Below, one piece after another: positions 1 to 44,557 of a stretch of DNA of 64,000 bases. Source of the DNA: Sphingopyxis sp. H073 (GTDB taxonomy: Bacteria > Pseudomonadota > Alphaproteobacteria > Sphingomonadales > Sphingomonadaceae); the NCBI RefSeq assembly GCF_001468395.1, contig NZ_LNSG01000009.1, forward strand, positions 1 to 64,000, written 5' to 3'. Every line of letters begins with the position of its first letter. The first letter of the stretch is position 1. Made by a program: the position numbers and the translations under genes. The notes under the pieces are model-generated. The model searched no databases and was not told the DNA's origin. It worked only from the letters and a program-made list of their open reading frames with translations.

Positions 1-47
1 ATTGGGGCTTCATCTTCGTTCCTTCGTCACTACGACGAAGCCCCAAT
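1..47 (-). promoter_or_regulatory. IS leader stem-loop covering the orfA start (copy 1)
   Basis: Arms at 37-47 and 1-11 form an 11-bp inverted repeat (minus-strand ATTGGGGCTTC with GAAGCCCCAAT) that includes the last base of the orfA start codon. A shorter inner hairpin (34-40 with 22-28) shares one arm segment. The same fold occurs in copy 2 with two compensated base-pair changes. Confidence 0.6.
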
Positions 48-98
48 CCTCCTTAATTCACAACCTCAAATCTGTGCCATAGGTGCTGACGGGGGACA
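1..98 (-). mobile_element. IS3-like element, 5' terminal fragment (copy 1)
   Basis: The reverse complement of 1-98 matches the first ~100 bases of the complete IS at 42240: the same terminus beginning TGT and containing CCCCGTCAGCACC, the same leader, and the ATG of orfA (minus-strand ATG at 13-11). Only the 5' end is in the window, and the transposase would read leftwards out of it. The inner edge at 98 abuts the truncated TonB receptor. The copies differ at several leader bases, so they are diverged relatives and not recent duplicates. Confidence 0.9.
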
Positions 99-1607
99 AT
101 CAATACATTGCGTGCATCACCAACTGAAGTCTGCCAGGTGATCCAAGCTGGTGCCTGTGTCCATGGTGGATTCTCGTCTTACCCCGGTGCGCTACGGCCG
201 TTGCCAGGCGGTGACTGGTTTGGATACATCGATCCGGACGGCAGCGGGCGGGTAACGTCGAGTGATTATACATTCGATAACGCAAATACCATGTCCACCT
301 ACGGTGGTAGTGCCAAGCTGACCTCAGCTGTGGGGGATGTAAACATCAATCTGATCAGCGATTACAAGCAGTTCAAGAAGGACTTCAATCTCGACCTCGA
401 GGCTGGACCGGAAAATCAGTTTGCATGGCATGGCATTGCCAATACTAAGGCCTTTACGCAAGAACTGCGTCTTGACGGTGCAACTGGTCCTCTCAAGTGG
501 GTGACCGGACTGTATTACCTGAATATCAAGACCCATGCCGTCCATGGCATCGCGGCGTTGCCGGACAGCGCGTATCCTATTCCTTCATGGGATCAACCGC
601 GCATCGCAAACCTCAAGACTGAATCTTACTCCGCGTTCGGTCAGGTGGACTATCAGGTTACGGACACGGTCAATTTGATTGGTGGCCTGCGCTGGACCCG
701 CGAAAAGAAGCGGTATGATTTTGAGGTTCTTTTCGTGACCCCGACTGACAACGGCAATCCTTATTCCTGGGATTACTCGCCCGCAATTAGTTTCCCTGGT
801 TTCTCTCAGGGGCTTTACGCAGACTCGCACGGTGAAACGTTGTGGTCATGGAAGGCGGGAGTTAACTGGAAGCCTGTGCAGGATGTCCTGGTCTATGCCA
901 GCGTTACGCAGGGTGCCAAGGCAGGAAGTTACAATGCGGGCGGTCCGCCGCTTCCCGCTTCTGAGATTCCCTATAAGCCGGAGCGGCTTATTTCTTACGA
1001 GGTCGGACTCAAAAGCACTCTTTTTGGCGGTAAAGTCCGGTTCAATACAGCGGGCTACTACTATGACTACCACAACTATCAGGCCGCGCGCTGGTTGGGT
1101 TTCTCGAGCCTTATCACCAATGCCAATGCGCGGATATATGGTGGTGAAGCCGAGCTTGCTGCTTCTCTTACAGATAATCTCGAAGCGTCGTTCAACGTTG
1201 GCGCACAGCACAATACGGTGAAGAATGTCCTAGTGGGAGGAGTGCGGCGTAATGTTCAGACGACCTTTACGCCCAAACTGACCTTGGCCGGCACTATCCG
1301 TTACACTGTTCCCAGCTTGGTTGCAGGTGGCAAAGTCGGCCTTCAGGCTAGTGCAAATTATCAGTCCCGGGTGTGGCATAACCTGAACAATTTCGACGCC
1401 AATAGTCTCGCGCCCTATGGCGTGGTTAATGCGCGTATTGATTGGACCAGCGAAGACAAGAAATGGTTGGTCGCCTTCAGTGTCAAGAACCTCACAGACA
1501 ACGTTTACGACAATATCGGTTTCGATTTGTCGCAGGTTTGCGGATGCAACCTTCAGGCACAGGGAAAGCCGCGGTGGTTTAACGTGTCTGTGCGCCGCAG
1601 TTTCTAA
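99..1607 (+). pseudogene. TonB-dependent receptor, 5'-truncated by IS (beta-barrel portion)
   Basis: The open frame enters directly from the IS end at 98 and runs to a TAA at 1605. About 500 residues remain. They look like the outer-membrane beta-barrel of a sphingomonad TonB-dependent receptor: alternating aromatic strands, segments such as FGQVDYQVTDTVNLIGGLRW, and a terminal strand ending in VRRSF. The signal peptide, TonB box and plug domain are missing, so the protein cannot be exported or gated normally. The only start is a TTG at 108 just outside the IS. In its intact form it would have served the demethylation genes downstream, probably importing their substrate, but that is inferred from position only. 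Confidence 0.85.
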
Positions 1608-39250: not shown

Positions 39251-40969
39251 TCAGGGGCCGAGAATGACTTGCCGGAACACGATTCCCACCTTGAAGCTAC
39301 GATCCTCAGTCAGAAAGCGGTGGCTCTGCATAAGCTCGTACCGCGACATAAAGGGCAGCTTCTCCAGCGAGAAGTCGTCATCATCGTGGAGCACGCAAAA
39401 CACGACTGAATAGTCCTTCTCGTTGAGGTCCGCTTTCTTCTCCGGGATCAACGCAAGGAAGCCGGGCTTGTCTTTCGCAGCATTGATGGGATCGACATCG
39501 GCACCGATCCATGCCGCCATCCCGGCGCGGCAGGCGGTATCTGTCGAAAAGGCATGGGCGTAGAATCTGCCTTGCGTGAAAAGGTGGCTGATGGATGCCG
39601 CGCCGGAGGAGTATCGTTTAACGTGAATGATCGACCGATCGGCATGCAGCAGGTCGCACACTTCGTATCGACGCTGCCCGGCGATCTCGAGCTTGGCCTT
39701 GTCAAGGAGATACAGGTTCGCACAATCTTCCGCCGCACGTCGGTTGAAAATCTCCTCGCGGTTCTCCTTCCGGTCGGCCTTGTAGATGTTGATCCCGTGC
39801 GGGAGGTAAGCGGGATCAAGAACGAGATCATGTTTGCCGAGATACTGTTCAACCGACGCCTTCAGTTCCTCGGACACCTCCCTCCACTGCCCCGACGAGA
39901 GAACAAATGCCCGCCCGTTCCATTCGACCTCGGCCACTAGACATCGATATGCATCCCAGCGCACGAAGGTTCGGCTGAGCTCGGGATTGTACTCGAATAT
40001 CTTCCACCCTTTGATGCGAGTCTCGTCGAGGTCCTTCAGCCGCCGATGCTTGATGGCGATCAGGTCGGCGATGCGCAGATCGTCGAACGTTTCGATCTTT
40101 CCGTCGCCATCCTTCTCGACATAGGCAAACGAGCTGTCGTCGTCGGCGAGAAAGTCCGGCGGGGCGAGGTGAATGGCATTAAAATTCTTCGCTTCGATTG
40201 CCGCGCATAGCAGGCGGTTCAGCTCCGCTATGACGACCGGGTCGCTCTCGTGCCGGAGGATGTCGTACACCTTCAGGTCGGTCTTGGTGTAGTCGTCCGA
40301 TCCATATCGCTCTTCGAGCTTCCGACAGAGCTGAGCAAGATAAGTCCAGGTTACTTCCTGATCCTTCGGGAACTTTATCAGAATGCTGTCCTTGCCGCGA
40401 AAGGAGTCGACCAGCTCTTTGTATTCCGTCTTCACATGGCCTGAGATCGTGCGAAGAAATTCGGACTCGGTGTTGATGCCGAACACCCCGAGGCTTGCCC
40501 CCGTGCTGGCCTGCCGCTCAGTCTGACGGCTGATCGCCTCATGGGCAGCAGTCTGAATCCGCCGGAGTTTTTCGGCATCGCAGATGTTCATTCCCACTTT
40601 GATGCCAAAGTCATAAACGATCTGCTCCCTGTCCAGATAGCTGTCCCCATGCTGGCCAAAGGCAGCTGCGTAGCACACATCTTTCGCGCCATCTTTGCCG
40701 ATCACCCGCAGTGCCATTAGGGCGCGCGGATATTTGTTGAACGCCTCGTAGGTGTATTTTTTCTCGGCGAAGCCCGAGTTGAGAAAACGGAGCCATGGGA
40801 TGTGCTCTTCAGTCTTCCGACCGCCGCCCGCGGGGTCGTATTTTATGTACCCCTCGAATTCATCGTTCGGCTCGATGTAGGTGTAGGTCGCCAGATCGCC
40901 CTTTAGAAAGTCCTGGAAACTCTTACCGTCCTTGATCCTGAAAAGCGTGATCCGCTTCATGTCCGACAT
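39251..40969 (-). CDS. TIGR04141/DUF6119 family protein, putative defence gene
   Basis: About 572 residues, starting MSDMKRITLFRIKDGKSFQD and containing PWLRFLNSGFAEKKYTYEAF, AAFGQHGDSYLDREQIVYDF and a C-terminal SVVFCVLHDDDDFSLEKLPF. These match the 'sporadically distributed' family TIGR04141 (DUF6119), which often occurs next to restriction-modification genes. I do not know an assigned biochemical activity. It lies downstream of a methyltransferase remnant on the same strand, so it may be an orphaned component of that system. The ATG at 40969 has GGGGG upstream; ATG 40960 is also possible. Confidence 0.78.
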   Translation of the reverse strand: MSDMKRITLFRIKDGKSFQDFLKGDLATYTYIEPNDEFEGYIKYDPAGGGRKTEEHIPWLRFLNSGFAEKKYTYEAFNKYPRALMALRVIGKDGAKDVCYAAAFGQHGDSYLDREQIVYDFGIKVGMNICDAEKLRRIQTAAHEAISRQTERQASTGASLGVFGINTESEFLRTISGHVKTEYKELVDSFRGKDSILIKFPKDQEVTWTYLAQLCRKLEERYGSDDYTKTDLKVYDILRHESDPVVIAELNRLLCAAIEAKNFNAIHLAPPDFLADDDSSFAYVEKDGDGKIETFDDLRIADLIAIKHRRLKDLDETRIKGWKIFEYNPELSRTFVRWDAYRCLVAEVEWNGRAFVLSSGQWREVSEELKASVEQYLGKHDLVLDPAYLPHGINIYKADRKENREEIFNRRAAEDCANLYLLDKAKLEIAGQRRYEVCDLLHADRSIIHVKRYSSGAASISHLFTQGRFYAHAFSTDTACRAGMAAWIGADVDPINAAKDKPGFLALIPEKKADLNEKDYSVVFCVLHDDDDFSLEKLPFMSRYELMQSHRFLTEDRSFKVGIVFRQVILGP

Positions 40970-41444
40970 TGAATCTGCCCCCGCGTAACCAGTGACGCTG
41001 CTTAGCTCACACCGCACTGTAAGTTCAAAAGCCTACTCCACAACAGCGGGGCTGATGGCACAAGAATAAGGTGATTAATTCGTTCAAAATGGCTCAAATA
41101 GATGCATCGCGTTGACGCCAGCGGTAGTGCGCCCTCTCTTTGGCCAAGACTACATCGGTTAATCACTAATTCGCAAAGCGAATATGAGCGTTAAGATAAG
41201 TTTGGCGAAGATTGGACAGCAAGACTGGAGCGCGTAGCTGCCGCTCCAAAAGGCAACGTTCACTCTGACATCTAAGGCTAGAACCATTCCTTTCGAGGTT
41301 CAAGCCCGCCCACAGTGCCGCTGGAGGTCTGCTTTCGTGTTTTCGCGGGGTGGCGCAACGCTGATGACATCAGTCCCCGCCAAAGCCGATCGGGTGGACG
41401 CCCTCGACGTTATTGATGTGCCAAGCTGGAGGTGCTGAACACCA
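40970..41444. other. Intergenic stretch without a recognised gene
   Basis: About 475 bases between the TIGR04141 gene and the methyltransferase remnant. It has no open frame with domain similarity and no RNA gene I recognise. It should contain the promoter of the TIGR04141 gene. Confidence 0.5.
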
Positions 41445-42239
41445 CTAGCCAAGCGACCGTTTACGCTTTCCAGCGCCGGCGACTGATGCCGGGATGTGGG
41501 AGGCTGGCACCTTTTTACTGGCAAGGTCATCTGCCATGATCGAGCTCGCAATTCCAAGGCGAAGCAAAGTCTCAGCCAAACGCTTTAGCGTGGTGTACGG
41601 CGCGCAGCTTCCTCCGTATGCTGCTTTGAAGATTTCCCAGTTCTCAACTATGGCTGCGGCCAGTGCTTGCTCATGGCCGGCTGGAACGGTCCTGAGCGCG
41701 ACAACGCAATCGGACAGAACAGCTTCGCAGCTAGGCAGTCTAACGACCTTATCTTTCGAGGGGCGCCCTACGCGCGATATCAAGACCGCAGGTCCGTGCA
41801 CGCGCCGACGTGTGGCGGAGGCCTTCCGTTTCGTTGGCGCTAGGCGGCCTTCCCTCATATCGGTCGTGTGAATGAAACGCGGTCCCGTCTTGGTTTCAAC
41901 ATAGTCGTGGACCGAGAGCGAGCCTCGGGACATCTCGACTGCATAAGGTCGTAGTGAAACTAGCAGCGGTTTTTCTCCCGCCGATTTATGTTTCCGCGAT
42001 GATCGCGAGATGCGCAAGACAGTCACGGTGACGGAGTGGGACCGGAACGCATTCTTTCGAACGTCGCCGATTTGCTCGACACTACCCCAAGCGCGGATCG
42101 CGGCAATTAATTCCGCATCGCGTTCGCTCACGAGCACCGAAGCCGGGAGGATCGCAATTAACTCGCCGTTGACCGAGAGATATTTGAGGGCACGCGCGAC
42201 AAAGGCCAGCGCCTTACTTGCTGAGTAGATTTTGCCCGC
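41445..42239 (-). pseudogene. N6-adenine DNA methyltransferase, 3' remnant cut by IS
   Basis: The minus-strand frame is open from the IS edge at 42239 and reads GKIYSASKALAFVARALKYL, then VNGELIAILPASVLVSERDA, GSVEQIGDVRKNAFRSHSVT. This is the segment after the NPPY motif of class-I adenine methyltransferases, followed by a target-recognition-like part (PAVLISRVGRPSKDK, and NWEIFKAAYGGSCAPYTTLK). The SAM-binding region and NPPY are lost, so it cannot be active. The frame has a TGA just inside the IS, and only a GTG at 42137 could restart it. The missing 5' half is not on the other side of the IS. Confidence 0.82.
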
Positions 42240-42290
42240 TGTTCCCCGTCAGCACCTATGGCACAGATTTGAGGTTGTAAATTAAGGAGG

Positions 42291-42337
42291 GTTTGGGCTT
42301 CGTCGTAGTGACGAAGGAACGAAGATGAAGCCCAAAC
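42291..42337 (+). promoter_or_regulatory. IS leader stem-loop covering the orfA start (copy 2)
   Basis: Arms GTTTGGGCTTC (42291-42301) and GAAGCCCAAAC (42327-42337) pair, enclosing the AAGGA ribosome site and touching the ATG at 42325. An alternative inner hairpin pairs CTTCGTC (42298-42304) with GACGAAG (42310-42316). Comparable IS leaders hide the start codon in read-through transcripts. Confidence 0.6.
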
Positions 42338-42711
42338 CCTCTATGAAAAAGTCGCTGGTGAAGCCCACTGCTGAGCGGGTAATGAAGGACATCCGGCGGC
42401 ATACCCGGCGCCATTTCTCGGCCGAGGACAAAATCCGCATTGTGCTCGACGGGCTGCGCGGCGAGGACAGCATTGCCGAGCTGTGCCGTAAGGAAGGCAT
42501 CGCCCAGAGCCTGTACTACACCTGGTCAAAGGAGTTCATGGAAGCAGGCAAGCGCCGCCTGGCTGGCGACACGGCCCGCGGTGCGAGCACCGGCGAGGTG
42601 CAGGACCTGCGCCGCGAAGCCCGTGCCCTGAAGGAATGCGTGGCAGATCTGACGCTCGAAAACCGTCTGCTCAAAAAAAGCATGATCGCGGATGGGGACG
42701 ACGGCGAATGA
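42325..42711 (+). CDS. IS3-like transposase OrfA
   Basis: A 128-residue helix-turn-helix protein: RRHTRRHFSAEDKIRIVLDG, then GEDSIAELCRKEGIAQSLYY, and a C-terminal Leu-rich coil (LKECVADLTLENRLLKKSMI). It binds IS ends and is the upstream partner of OrfB. Its TGA overlaps the OrfB ATG (ATGA at 42708-42711), so the two can be translated in sequence. A run of seven A near 42673-42679 might also allow slippage into the -1 frame used by orfB. Confidence 0.92.
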   Translation: MKPKPSMKKSLVKPTAERVMKDIRRHTRRHFSAEDKIRIVLDGLRGEDSIAELCRKEGIAQSLYYTWSKEFMEAGKRRLAGDTARGASTGEVQDLRREARALKECVADLTLENRLLKKSMIADGDDGE

Positions 42712-43694
42712 GGTATCCCGCATCCGAAAAGCTCGAGATCATCCGGATCGTCGAGCAGTCGCACCAGCCTGCCAACCGTACGCTGGACCAGCTCGGTATC
42801 GCGCGTCGGACGTTCTACCGTTGGTATGACCGCTATCTCGAGGGCGGGCCGGAGGCGCTGGAGGATCGGCCCTCGGCGCCAAGTCGGGTGTGGAACCGCA
42901 TCGGCGATGACATCCAGAAGCAGATCATCGACATGGCGTTGGAAGGCGACGCGACCGACCTCAGTCCTCGCGAACTGGCGGTGCGGTTCACCGACGAGAA
43001 GCGCTACTTCGTGTCGGAAGCCACGGTTTACCGCCTGTTGAAGGCTCACGATCTGATCACCAGCCCGGCCTATGTCGTGATCAAAGCAGCCGATCAGTTC
43101 CACACCAAGACCACGCGGGTGAATGAGATGTGGCAAACCGACTTCACCTACTTCAAAATCATCGGATGGGGCTGGATGTACCTGTCGACTGTGCTCGACG
43201 ACTTCTCGCGCTACATCATCGCCTGGAAGCTGTGCACCAACATGCGCGCCGAAGACGTAACCGACACGCTGGACATGGCGCTGGCAGCATCGGGTTGCGA
43301 CAGCGCCACGGTACTGCACAAACCCAGACTGCTCAGTGATAACGGCCCCAGCTACATCGCGGGCGAACTGGCGGAATATATCGAGGCTCAGAAGATGAGC
43401 CACGTCCGCGGTGCCCCAATGCATCCGCAAACCCAGGGCAAGATCGAGCGCTGGCACCAGACTCTGAAAAACCGCATCCTGCTCGAAAACTACTTCCTGC
43501 CCGGCGACCTTGAGGCCCAGATCGAGGCGTTCGTCGAGCACTACAATCACCAGCGTTACCACGAAAGCCTGAACAATGTGACGCCCGCCGACGCTTACTT
43601 CGGCAGGGCCCCGGCCATCATAAAACAGCGCGAAAGGATCAAGCGAAAGACCATCGAATATCGGCGCTTGCAACACCGTAAGCTTGCCGCCTAA
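42708..43694 (+). CDS. IS3-like transposase OrfB (DDE integrase)
   Basis: A 328-residue transposase. It has an N-terminal helix-turn-helix (ASEKLEIIRIVEQSHQPANR, RTFYRWYDRYLEGG) and an rve/DDE core with Asp in WQTDFTYFKIIGWG, Asp in LLSDNGPSYIAGELAE and Glu in QTQGKIERWHQTLKNR. It looks full length and intact, so this copy could still be mobile and could supply transposase to the other copy. Confidence 0.94.
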   Translation: MRYPASEKLEIIRIVEQSHQPANRTLDQLGIARRTFYRWYDRYLEGGPEALEDRPSAPSRVWNRIGDDIQKQIIDMALEGDATDLSPRELAVRFTDEKRYFVSEATVYRLLKAHDLITSPAYVVIKAADQFHTKTTRVNEMWQTDFTYFKIIGWGWMYLSTVLDDFSRYIIAWKLCTNMRAEDVTDTLDMALAASGCDSATVLHKPRLLSDNGPSYIAGELAEYIEAQKMSHVRGAPMHPQTQGKIERWHQTLKNRILLENYFLPGDLEAQIEAFVEHYNHQRYHESLNNVTPADAYFGRAPAIIKQRERIKRKTIEYRRLQHRKLAA

Positions 43695-43729
43695 AACCCA
43701 ACCCCTGACGAGGCCCACACTCCGCTAAT

Positions 43730-44557
43730 CTACGCCGCGAGTTGTGCCAAATGTTCTGACGACGGACAGAGAGTGCTGCGCTTTCTCCATCCAAGATCGC
43801 GTACGCCAATTTTGAATGTGTAGTGTGGTCCACAATGCTTGATCAACGTGTTGAGGACGACTTGTTGATAATCGAGCAGGTTTTCGAATTCGTCGACGAT
43901 GAAAAAGAGGCTCTTACCCAAAAATTGAGGCAGCTCGAGAACCGCTTGACAGAGGTCATCAATCGTTTGGCCCTGCAGCGACAGCGGTGGCAAAGCCGTT
44001 GGATCAAGATTGTTCAGGAAGGCCTCGAATCGGCGGCGTCCTCGATGAATGCTCTTGAGCAGTTGGGCCTGATCGTCGGCCACATCGAGGTAAAGAGAAT
44101 CGGCGACATCCTGACACACTGACGTCGGCAGCGCCTCCCCAGCGGGCGCATGCTTGGCATGCCAGTTGAGGAACTCTACCACCTGACCGCAGAAGACCAG
44201 ATTGAGGTAATGAGCGAAGACCCGCTCCCACTGCCGATCGGTAAGTTCATCGCCGCGAAATGCGGTGACTCGGTTCGTGTTCACCCTGTAATAGAAGCCG
44301 TAATAAGGCCATTGGCTGATCGTTGCGGCGCTGTGCTTTTCAAGCTCGAAGCGACCTTCATAAGAAAGGCATCGTAGCACCGTCGTTTTCCCCGTGCCTC
44401 GCCCGCCGACCAATACGCAAGGGCGTGGCGTCTCCAGCTCTGGGTAGTAAGCCGGCTTGGTAAAGAGCTTGAAGAGTGCGTCTTTGAGCCACTCGGCACG
44501 GTAGATACCAAACGGATCGGTGAGTGCGTCGTCTTCCAAGGATAGATCGTCAGTCAT
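43730..44557 (-). pseudogene. ORC/CDC6-like AAA ATPase, C-terminus removed by IS
   Basis: The first 263 residues are normal: Walker A (CVLVGGRGTGKTTVLRCL), Walker B (SLFFIVDEFENLLDYQQVVL) and a sensor-like FKIGVRDLGWRKRS. At 43769 the frame enters the IS terminus, which adds 12 codons and a stop (CPSSEHLAQLAA). The expected C-terminal part of this ATPase family, with its winged helix, is absent. The start overlaps the upstream PRTase gene stop (ATGA), so the two formed an operon. Families of this kind have been predicted to be prokaryotic conflict-system components; function is inferred. Confidence 0.8.

Follow-up and report, generated by a model that had tools for sequence, protein, structure and literature searches.

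A broadly conserved hairpin over the transposase start in the leader of an IS3-family element from Sphingopyxis

The insertion sequence described here raises the question of whether the start of its transposase gene is hidden in an RNA hairpin and, if so, in which transcripts this hairpin would act. The window, i.e. the whole stretch of DNA that was analysed, covers 64 kb of the genome of Sphingopyxis sp. H073 (contig NZ_LNSG01000009.1, forward strand). It contains the following features relevant to this question:

42240..43768, plus strand: full-length IS3-family element (1529 bp), similar to ISSsp2 and ISPko4
42286..42304, plus strand: 5' arm of the leader hairpin (folding, covariation)
42308..42320, plus strand: inner pairs 42308-42320 and 42309-42319, enclosing the apical loop (covariation)
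42314..42318, plus strand: local Shine-Dalgarno sequence AAGGA in the apical loop, six bases 5' of the ATG (folding)
42324..42342, plus strand: 3' arm, consisting of the base preceding the ATG and orfA codons 1-6 (folding; synonymous-codon test for codons 2-6)
42325..42711, plus strand: orfA, 128 aa, HTH_Tnp_1 (domain match)
42636..43694, plus strand: orfB open frame, rve integrase core (domain match; DD(35)E read by eye)
42673..42680, plus strand: A7G run, probable -1 frameshift site joining orfA to orfB (sequence reading)
1..98, minus strand: copy 1, a second copy reduced to its left end and leader by the contig start (sequence match)

The element carries several traits of the IS3 family. 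Its terminal inverted repeats (TGTTCCCCGTCAG...GGCACA at the left, an imperfect inverse at the right) are imperfect and TG-initial as in that family, as read from the sequence; orfA encodes HTH_Tnp_1 and orfB the rve core. Relative to orfA, orfB is in the -1 frame, and a slippery run, A7G, is present, frameshifting being predicted from sequence. Two named elements, ISSsp2 and ISPko4, were found among the plasmid matches, and ISSsp2 is annotated with a single 1352-nt CDS. Against the NCBIfam model transpos_IS3, the orfB frame scores 184.5 and passes the cut-off of 160; its score against the IS481 model is higher (200) but under that model's own cut-off of 224. The triplets flanking this copy, CGC and GAG, differ, and no matching target duplication was seen in these flanks. 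Copy 1 comprises just 98 bases of the IS left end and ends at window position 1, which is the contig start. Elsewhere in the same genome, the leader recurs on one contig (C22), while another (C2) contains a leaderless piece.

The surroundings of both copies were also inspected. Upstream of the full IS lies a gene for a DUF6119 protein of unknown function (window 39251-41017, minus strand; PF19614, E 4e-109). An ORC-CDC6-like gene (PF24389; window 43730-44557, minus strand) terminates within the IS right end, and its match reaches profile position 266 of 571 only; this gene appears to be interrupted by the IS. Its neighbour is a PRTase-CE gene (PF24390; 44554-45486, minus strand). Copy 1 is adjoined by the reading frame of a TonB-dependent receptor (window 1-1607; beta-barrel PF00593 only), which seems to lack its N-terminal part.

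A preliminary description of the window had proposed that both IS copies fold the orfA start into an 11-bp stem. The arms are indeed present, as GTTTGGGCTTC at 42291-42301 and GAAGCCCAAAC at 42327-42337 in the window copy and as ATTGGGGCTTC and GAAGCCCCAAT at 1-11 and 37-47 in copy 1, where the element lies on the minus strand; the real stem of the window copy is longer, spanning 19 bp (42286-42304 with 42324-42342) that include the start codon and one G.U at 42302/42326. In a list of ten inverted repeats from the whole window, this stem comes first and that of copy 1 fourth. The leader hairpin exceeds chance expectation: the folding energy of the 141-base leader is -57.5 kcal/mol, whereas shuffled sequences average -38.5 (z -5.4), and 0/200 dinucleotide shuffles were as good. 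In the predicted fold, the AAGGA has a mean unpaired probability of 0.86 and the AUG one of 0.001. The minus strand of the leader folds strongly as well (z -4.9), which is expected of any palindrome, so that the choice of strand needs separate evidence. Between the two copies, the stem shows the double changes that had been described, A-T to G-C and G-C to T-A. Since copy 1 is only 98 bases long and cut by the contig start, two copies alone make for thin evidence, and the claim has to be carried by relatives of the element.

OrfA matches at E<=0.001 were found in 151/397 genomes of the family and 77/385 genomes of the class, weak matches to other IS3-type proteins probably included. Further loci came from the best 80 of 558 candidates on genome contigs, from the families of three class members (1/82, 5/24 and 40/198 genomes at E<=1e-12) and from plasmids of Bradyrhizobium, Methylobacterium, Rhodobacterales, Acetobacter and others. 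Out of 264 loci, 259 contained an OrfA match and 255 had enough flank, resulting in 203 distinct 145-base leaders; the 165 leaders with the left-end motif and sufficient orfA became the rows of a tree. Rows with at least 80% identity to the window OrfA over the best tblastn stretch are called close (94 rows) and those below this value distant (71 rows). Across the 165 rows, the ATG at 42325 hardly varies, with 0 changes inferred for its A, 0 for its T and 1 for its G.

Two other readings of the gene start were considered and rejected. With the ATG at 42343 as the true start, the hairpin would bring an upstream GGAGG near it; the codon at this position is TTG, AAT, AGC or others in most of the relatives listed and ATG in few of them. 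A leader peptide running from a TTG/CTG after the upstream GGAGG toward the orfA start has a frame that varies among relatives, as judged by eye.

In addition, an RNA model of the leader was run on 398 genomes of the phylum, a set for which the number of genomes outside the class is not given. Matches at E<=0.01 occurred in 20 genomes including that of the window, all of them from the same class or closer. The 32 matched loci comprise 21 with an OrfA match and 11 without one. Several of the latter (L282, L290, L293, L298 and also L295) lie at or near contig ends, and one (L299) is a weak match with an E value of 0.76; among three inspected loci (L279, L281, L287), L279 and L281 look like decayed left ends.

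Pairing was scored over 15 pairs (42290-42304 with 42324-42338, G.U allowed). All 54 distinct close leaders form at least 13 of these pairs, and 44/64 distant leaders form at least 12, the remaining 20/64 showing fewer than 12. When the partner was slid by 1-3 bases, the mean dropped to 4.0-7.7 pairs. In distant arms such as GGATTTCTGGTTCAT / ATGAAGCAGAAATCC, the CAU pairs with the AUG itself. The named relatives ISSsp2 and ISPko4 have stems of 18 and 19 bp, respectively. In a first alignment (A1, about 50 rows), 93.4% of the cells are paired compared to 34-54% with a slid partner, and nine pairs are doubly changed; 0/500 shuffles matched the paired fraction or the double changes, and the number of further pair types was reached by 25/500. 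Unpaired cells are found at the outermost pairs 42284-42286 (23, 25 and 8 of about 50 rows) and at pair 42297/42331 (6/50 rows). A second alignment (A2) consists of 40 rows picked by eye and is hence biased toward structure; it is 91.1% paired and has nine doubly changed pairs, a number matched by 2/500 shuffles. On A2, RNAalifold recovers the stem unprompted, with 9/14 pairs altered on both sides. For the G and A at 42287-42288 (A2 columns 6-7), 2 and 3 changes were inferred over the 165 rows, and this GA is near-invariant even in distant leaders where it is unpaired.

Covariation was assessed against a null in which the tree and the per-column change counts are preserved, using a simplified R-scape-like scheme written for this analysis with 300 simulations each. 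The summed covariation of the stem was 749.8 in all 165 rows (null maximum 149.1), 377.5 in the 94 close rows (null maximum 77.8) and 192.8 in the 71 distant rows (null maximum 120.3). None of the 300 simulations reached the observed sum in any of the three sets, and in each of them the best antidiagonal is the stem register. Single pairs gave E values of about 0 (42291/42337), 0.08 (42294/42334), 0.8 (42299/42329) and 14 (42290/42338); the case hence rests on the summed helix. The covarying RNA hairpin over the transposase start that the preliminary description had put forward is supported across many relatives. Branch events in the close rows comprise 42 double-sided exchanges from Watson-Crick to Watson-Crick, 20 one-sided breaks, 8 changes to G.U and 2 to A.C. 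One-sided breaks had been named in advance as refuting a selected stem; they do occur, the outermost pairs included, but double-sided exchanges outnumber them and the stem persists in spite of them. Overall, the hairpin fold looks maintained by selection.

Many paired changes on single branches, like the 42 in the close rows, would also be produced if template switching during replication corrected the imperfect palindrome, copying one arm to the other without any selection on RNA. We consider this very improbable. Such correction would be expected to erase the G.U at 42302/42326, which is kept in 49/50 A1 rows, and the mismatch at A2 columns 17/52, which are unpaired in 21/40 rows. Furthermore, changes from Watson-Crick to sense G.U outnumber those to A.C (37 versus 19 in all rows, 8 versus 2 in close rows), a modest asymmetry in favour of the sense RNA.

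The codons of orfA were examined by comparing the synonymous codons for residues 2-6, given each leader's own 5' arm; this test does not use the tree, and related leaders do not count as independent cases. Close leaders use the best-pairing synonymous set in 38/52 cases and lie above the usage-weighted expectation at P<0.05 in 51/52. Among distant leaders, 6/44 are at the maximum, 41/44 are above expectation and 15/44 are so at P<0.05, the preference for pairing thus being weaker than in close leaders. The codon choice fits both selection on RNA and arm-to-arm copying. Paired changes, together with the choice of codons, maintain the hairpin in its place over the orfA start.

It is also conceivable that the palindrome acts as DNA, either as a binding site of OrfA or OrfAB or through hairpin extrusion in the course of transposition. 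The HTH_Tnp_1 domain of OrfA, the location close to the IS left end and the well-folding minus strand would all agree with this. Complementarity, however, is retained despite sequence change, unlike what is seen in a protein binding site, and in an alignment-based count the onset of the 3' arm coincides with the start codon whether the relatives are close or distant, which makes a role as DNA highly implausible.

Returning to the RNA, the preliminary description had further suggested a switch, in which an inner hairpin (CTTCGTC/GACGAAG) competes with the stem. At least 6/7 of its pairs are present in 54/54 close leaders and in 5/64 distant ones, and the motif is nearly invariant in close leaders and thus without support from covariation. 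The inner register (42305-42311 with 42317-42323) lies above 300/300 null runs in all rows and in distant rows; in close rows the null was not exceeded, with 23/300 simulations reaching the observed value. The covarying inner pairs, 42308-42320 and 42309-42319, nest within the main stem and do not compete with it. As the inner hairpin is mostly confined to close relatives and the covarying pairs fit the main stem, a switch is not evidenced: two states would call for a conserved competing structure, and CTTCGTC/GACGAAG is not one.

What the hairpin would do depends on how much of it a transcript contains. With the whole 5' arm in the RNA, opening the start region is predicted to cost 28-32 kcal/mol. 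This cost falls to 20.5, 16.1, 10.0 and 6.3 kcal/mol for transcripts starting at 42291, 42295, 42299 and 42302, respectively, and to 3.4-3.6 kcal/mol for starts at 42305 or 42310, so that values of 10 kcal/mol or less are predicted only for starts at 42299 or later. Given the high cost with the whole arm, full-length leaders should be poorly translated, whichever promoter they come from.

In IS10 and IS50, transcripts coming in from outside form a leader hairpin that covers the transposase start, and resident transcripts are spared. The preliminary description had suggested that the hairpin here might likewise act in read-through transcripts. In such a mode, only read-through RNA would contain the 5' arm and fold, and resident transcripts, with their starts within the arm or downstream of it, would be freely translated. 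The gap between 28-32 kcal/mol with the whole arm and 3.4-3.6 kcal/mol for starts at 42305 or 42310 is in line with this. A scan for promoters of the sigma-70-like type, however, found none in 42180-42420 of the window copy, and the compensated changes of the 5' arm at 42290-42299 leave little space for a conserved -10. Moreover, a start at 42291 would still face 20.5 kcal/mol, and even without the arm the AUG remains mostly paired (predicted unpaired probability 0.05-0.25 for starts 42302-42310); since it is then paired in other folds, loss of the arm might not suffice to free it. The strongest covarying pair, 42291/42337, implies that the selected RNA begins at or upstream of 42291. We therefore regard a restriction to read-through transcripts as unlikely; the likeness to IS10 and IS50 lies in the start-covering hairpin, and the sparing of resident transcripts is a feature of those two elements.

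Other signals were sought around the leader. An upstream promoter, ATGGCA-N17-TTTAAG, was seen by eye in close relatives and not in distant ones, and was rejected, the scan of the window copy being negative. A search by eye for a circle-junction promoter gave nothing convincing. The sole terminator-like site, at 42207-42223, lies outside the IS.

The compensated arm changes, the negative scan for sigma-70-like sites and the pair 42291/42337 together favour general repression over an action on read-through RNA only. In our view, the leader probably acts in cis to repress the translation of any transcript carrying the arm, resident and read-through alike. An mRNA entering the IS from the left with the whole 5' arm would form the long hairpin, which would base-pair the orfA start codon and expose the Shine-Dalgarno sequence in the apical loop. 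Initiation would then require opening of the stem, and OrfA as well as the frameshift product OrfAB would rarely be made, which in turn would limit transposition. Protection against read-through would be one effect of this general repression. The fold is probably kept to restrain jumping, as in some other bacterial jumping genes.

A more elaborate scenario, which we put forward tentatively and consider doubtful, is that the ribosome docks on the apical-loop Shine-Dalgarno sequence of the closed hairpin, with the AUG locked in the stem until a second event, which might be co-transcriptional timing, a trans-acting RNA or OrfA itself. The leader would then be an Alphaproteobacteria-wide cis-regulatory RNA found with the IS clade, and the near-invariant GA might be involved.

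A stable and conserved pairing across the start region, as found here, is shared with the transposase-start hairpins of the IS200, ISPpu9, IS10 and IS50 kind. Accounts of IS200, a member of another IS family, report a hidden ribosome-binding site in the tnpA leader; in the present leader the AUG is predicted in the stem and the Shine-Dalgarno sequence in the loop. The report on ISPpu9 (PMC8450116) describes a fold of the tnp 5'-UTR that hinders transposase translation, point mutations designed to weaken this fold that raise a reporter to 26 times, and an antisense RNA, Asr9, proposed to open it. The element studied here resembles ISPpu9 in the 5'-UTR fold over the transposase start, the effect being predicted in our case; the proposed fold-opening Asr9 belongs to the account of ISPpu9.

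Within the IS3 family, IS2, IS3 and IS150 of E. coli K-12 are likewise annotated with two frames, orfA followed by orfB. In one copy of each, the longest runs near the orfA start are 8, 6 and 6 bp, the predicted opening costs 15.5, 9.7 and 8.1 kcal/mol, and the AUG is predicted to be mostly open (0.61, 0.80 and 0.76). As these single copies have no such hairpin, it is not general to the IS3 family. Rfam gave nothing at the gathering score in the hairpin region of the window; sub-threshold matches to mir-74 (minus strand of the hairpin), mir-378 and ALIL (minus strand) were taken as chance. Among titles and abstracts, in a search whose coverage leaves out most subscription papers, no paper on this leader was found; ISSsp2 is mentioned in one of the papers listed.

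The leader is thus well supported as a further start-hiding transposase hairpin that is broadly conserved, and its effect would be exerted on translation. If it acts in this way, a clade of the IS3 family would silence its transposase through mRNA structure, like IS200 and ISPpu9. The clade supplies dozens of natural compensatory variants for direct tests of start-codon sequestration, and the leader, as represented by the window copy, is an RNA structure without an Rfam model match at the gathering score. It is also a reminder that the codons with which an IS gene begins can be determined by RNA pairing.

The leader is itself a site of insertion. At eight loci (L016 (1-1560), L093, L115, L124, L143, L174, L175 and L183), an IS110-family element was found at the identical base of the IS leader, in the hairpin loop just 5' of the orfA start. 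The family assignment is based on DEDD_Tnp_IS110 and Transposase_20 in a domain test on L016 only, and L016 and L124 probably represent a single site of one genome. The insert measures about 1.34 kb, with both junctions seen in 4/8 loci, and it looks like a site-specific element targeting this IS.
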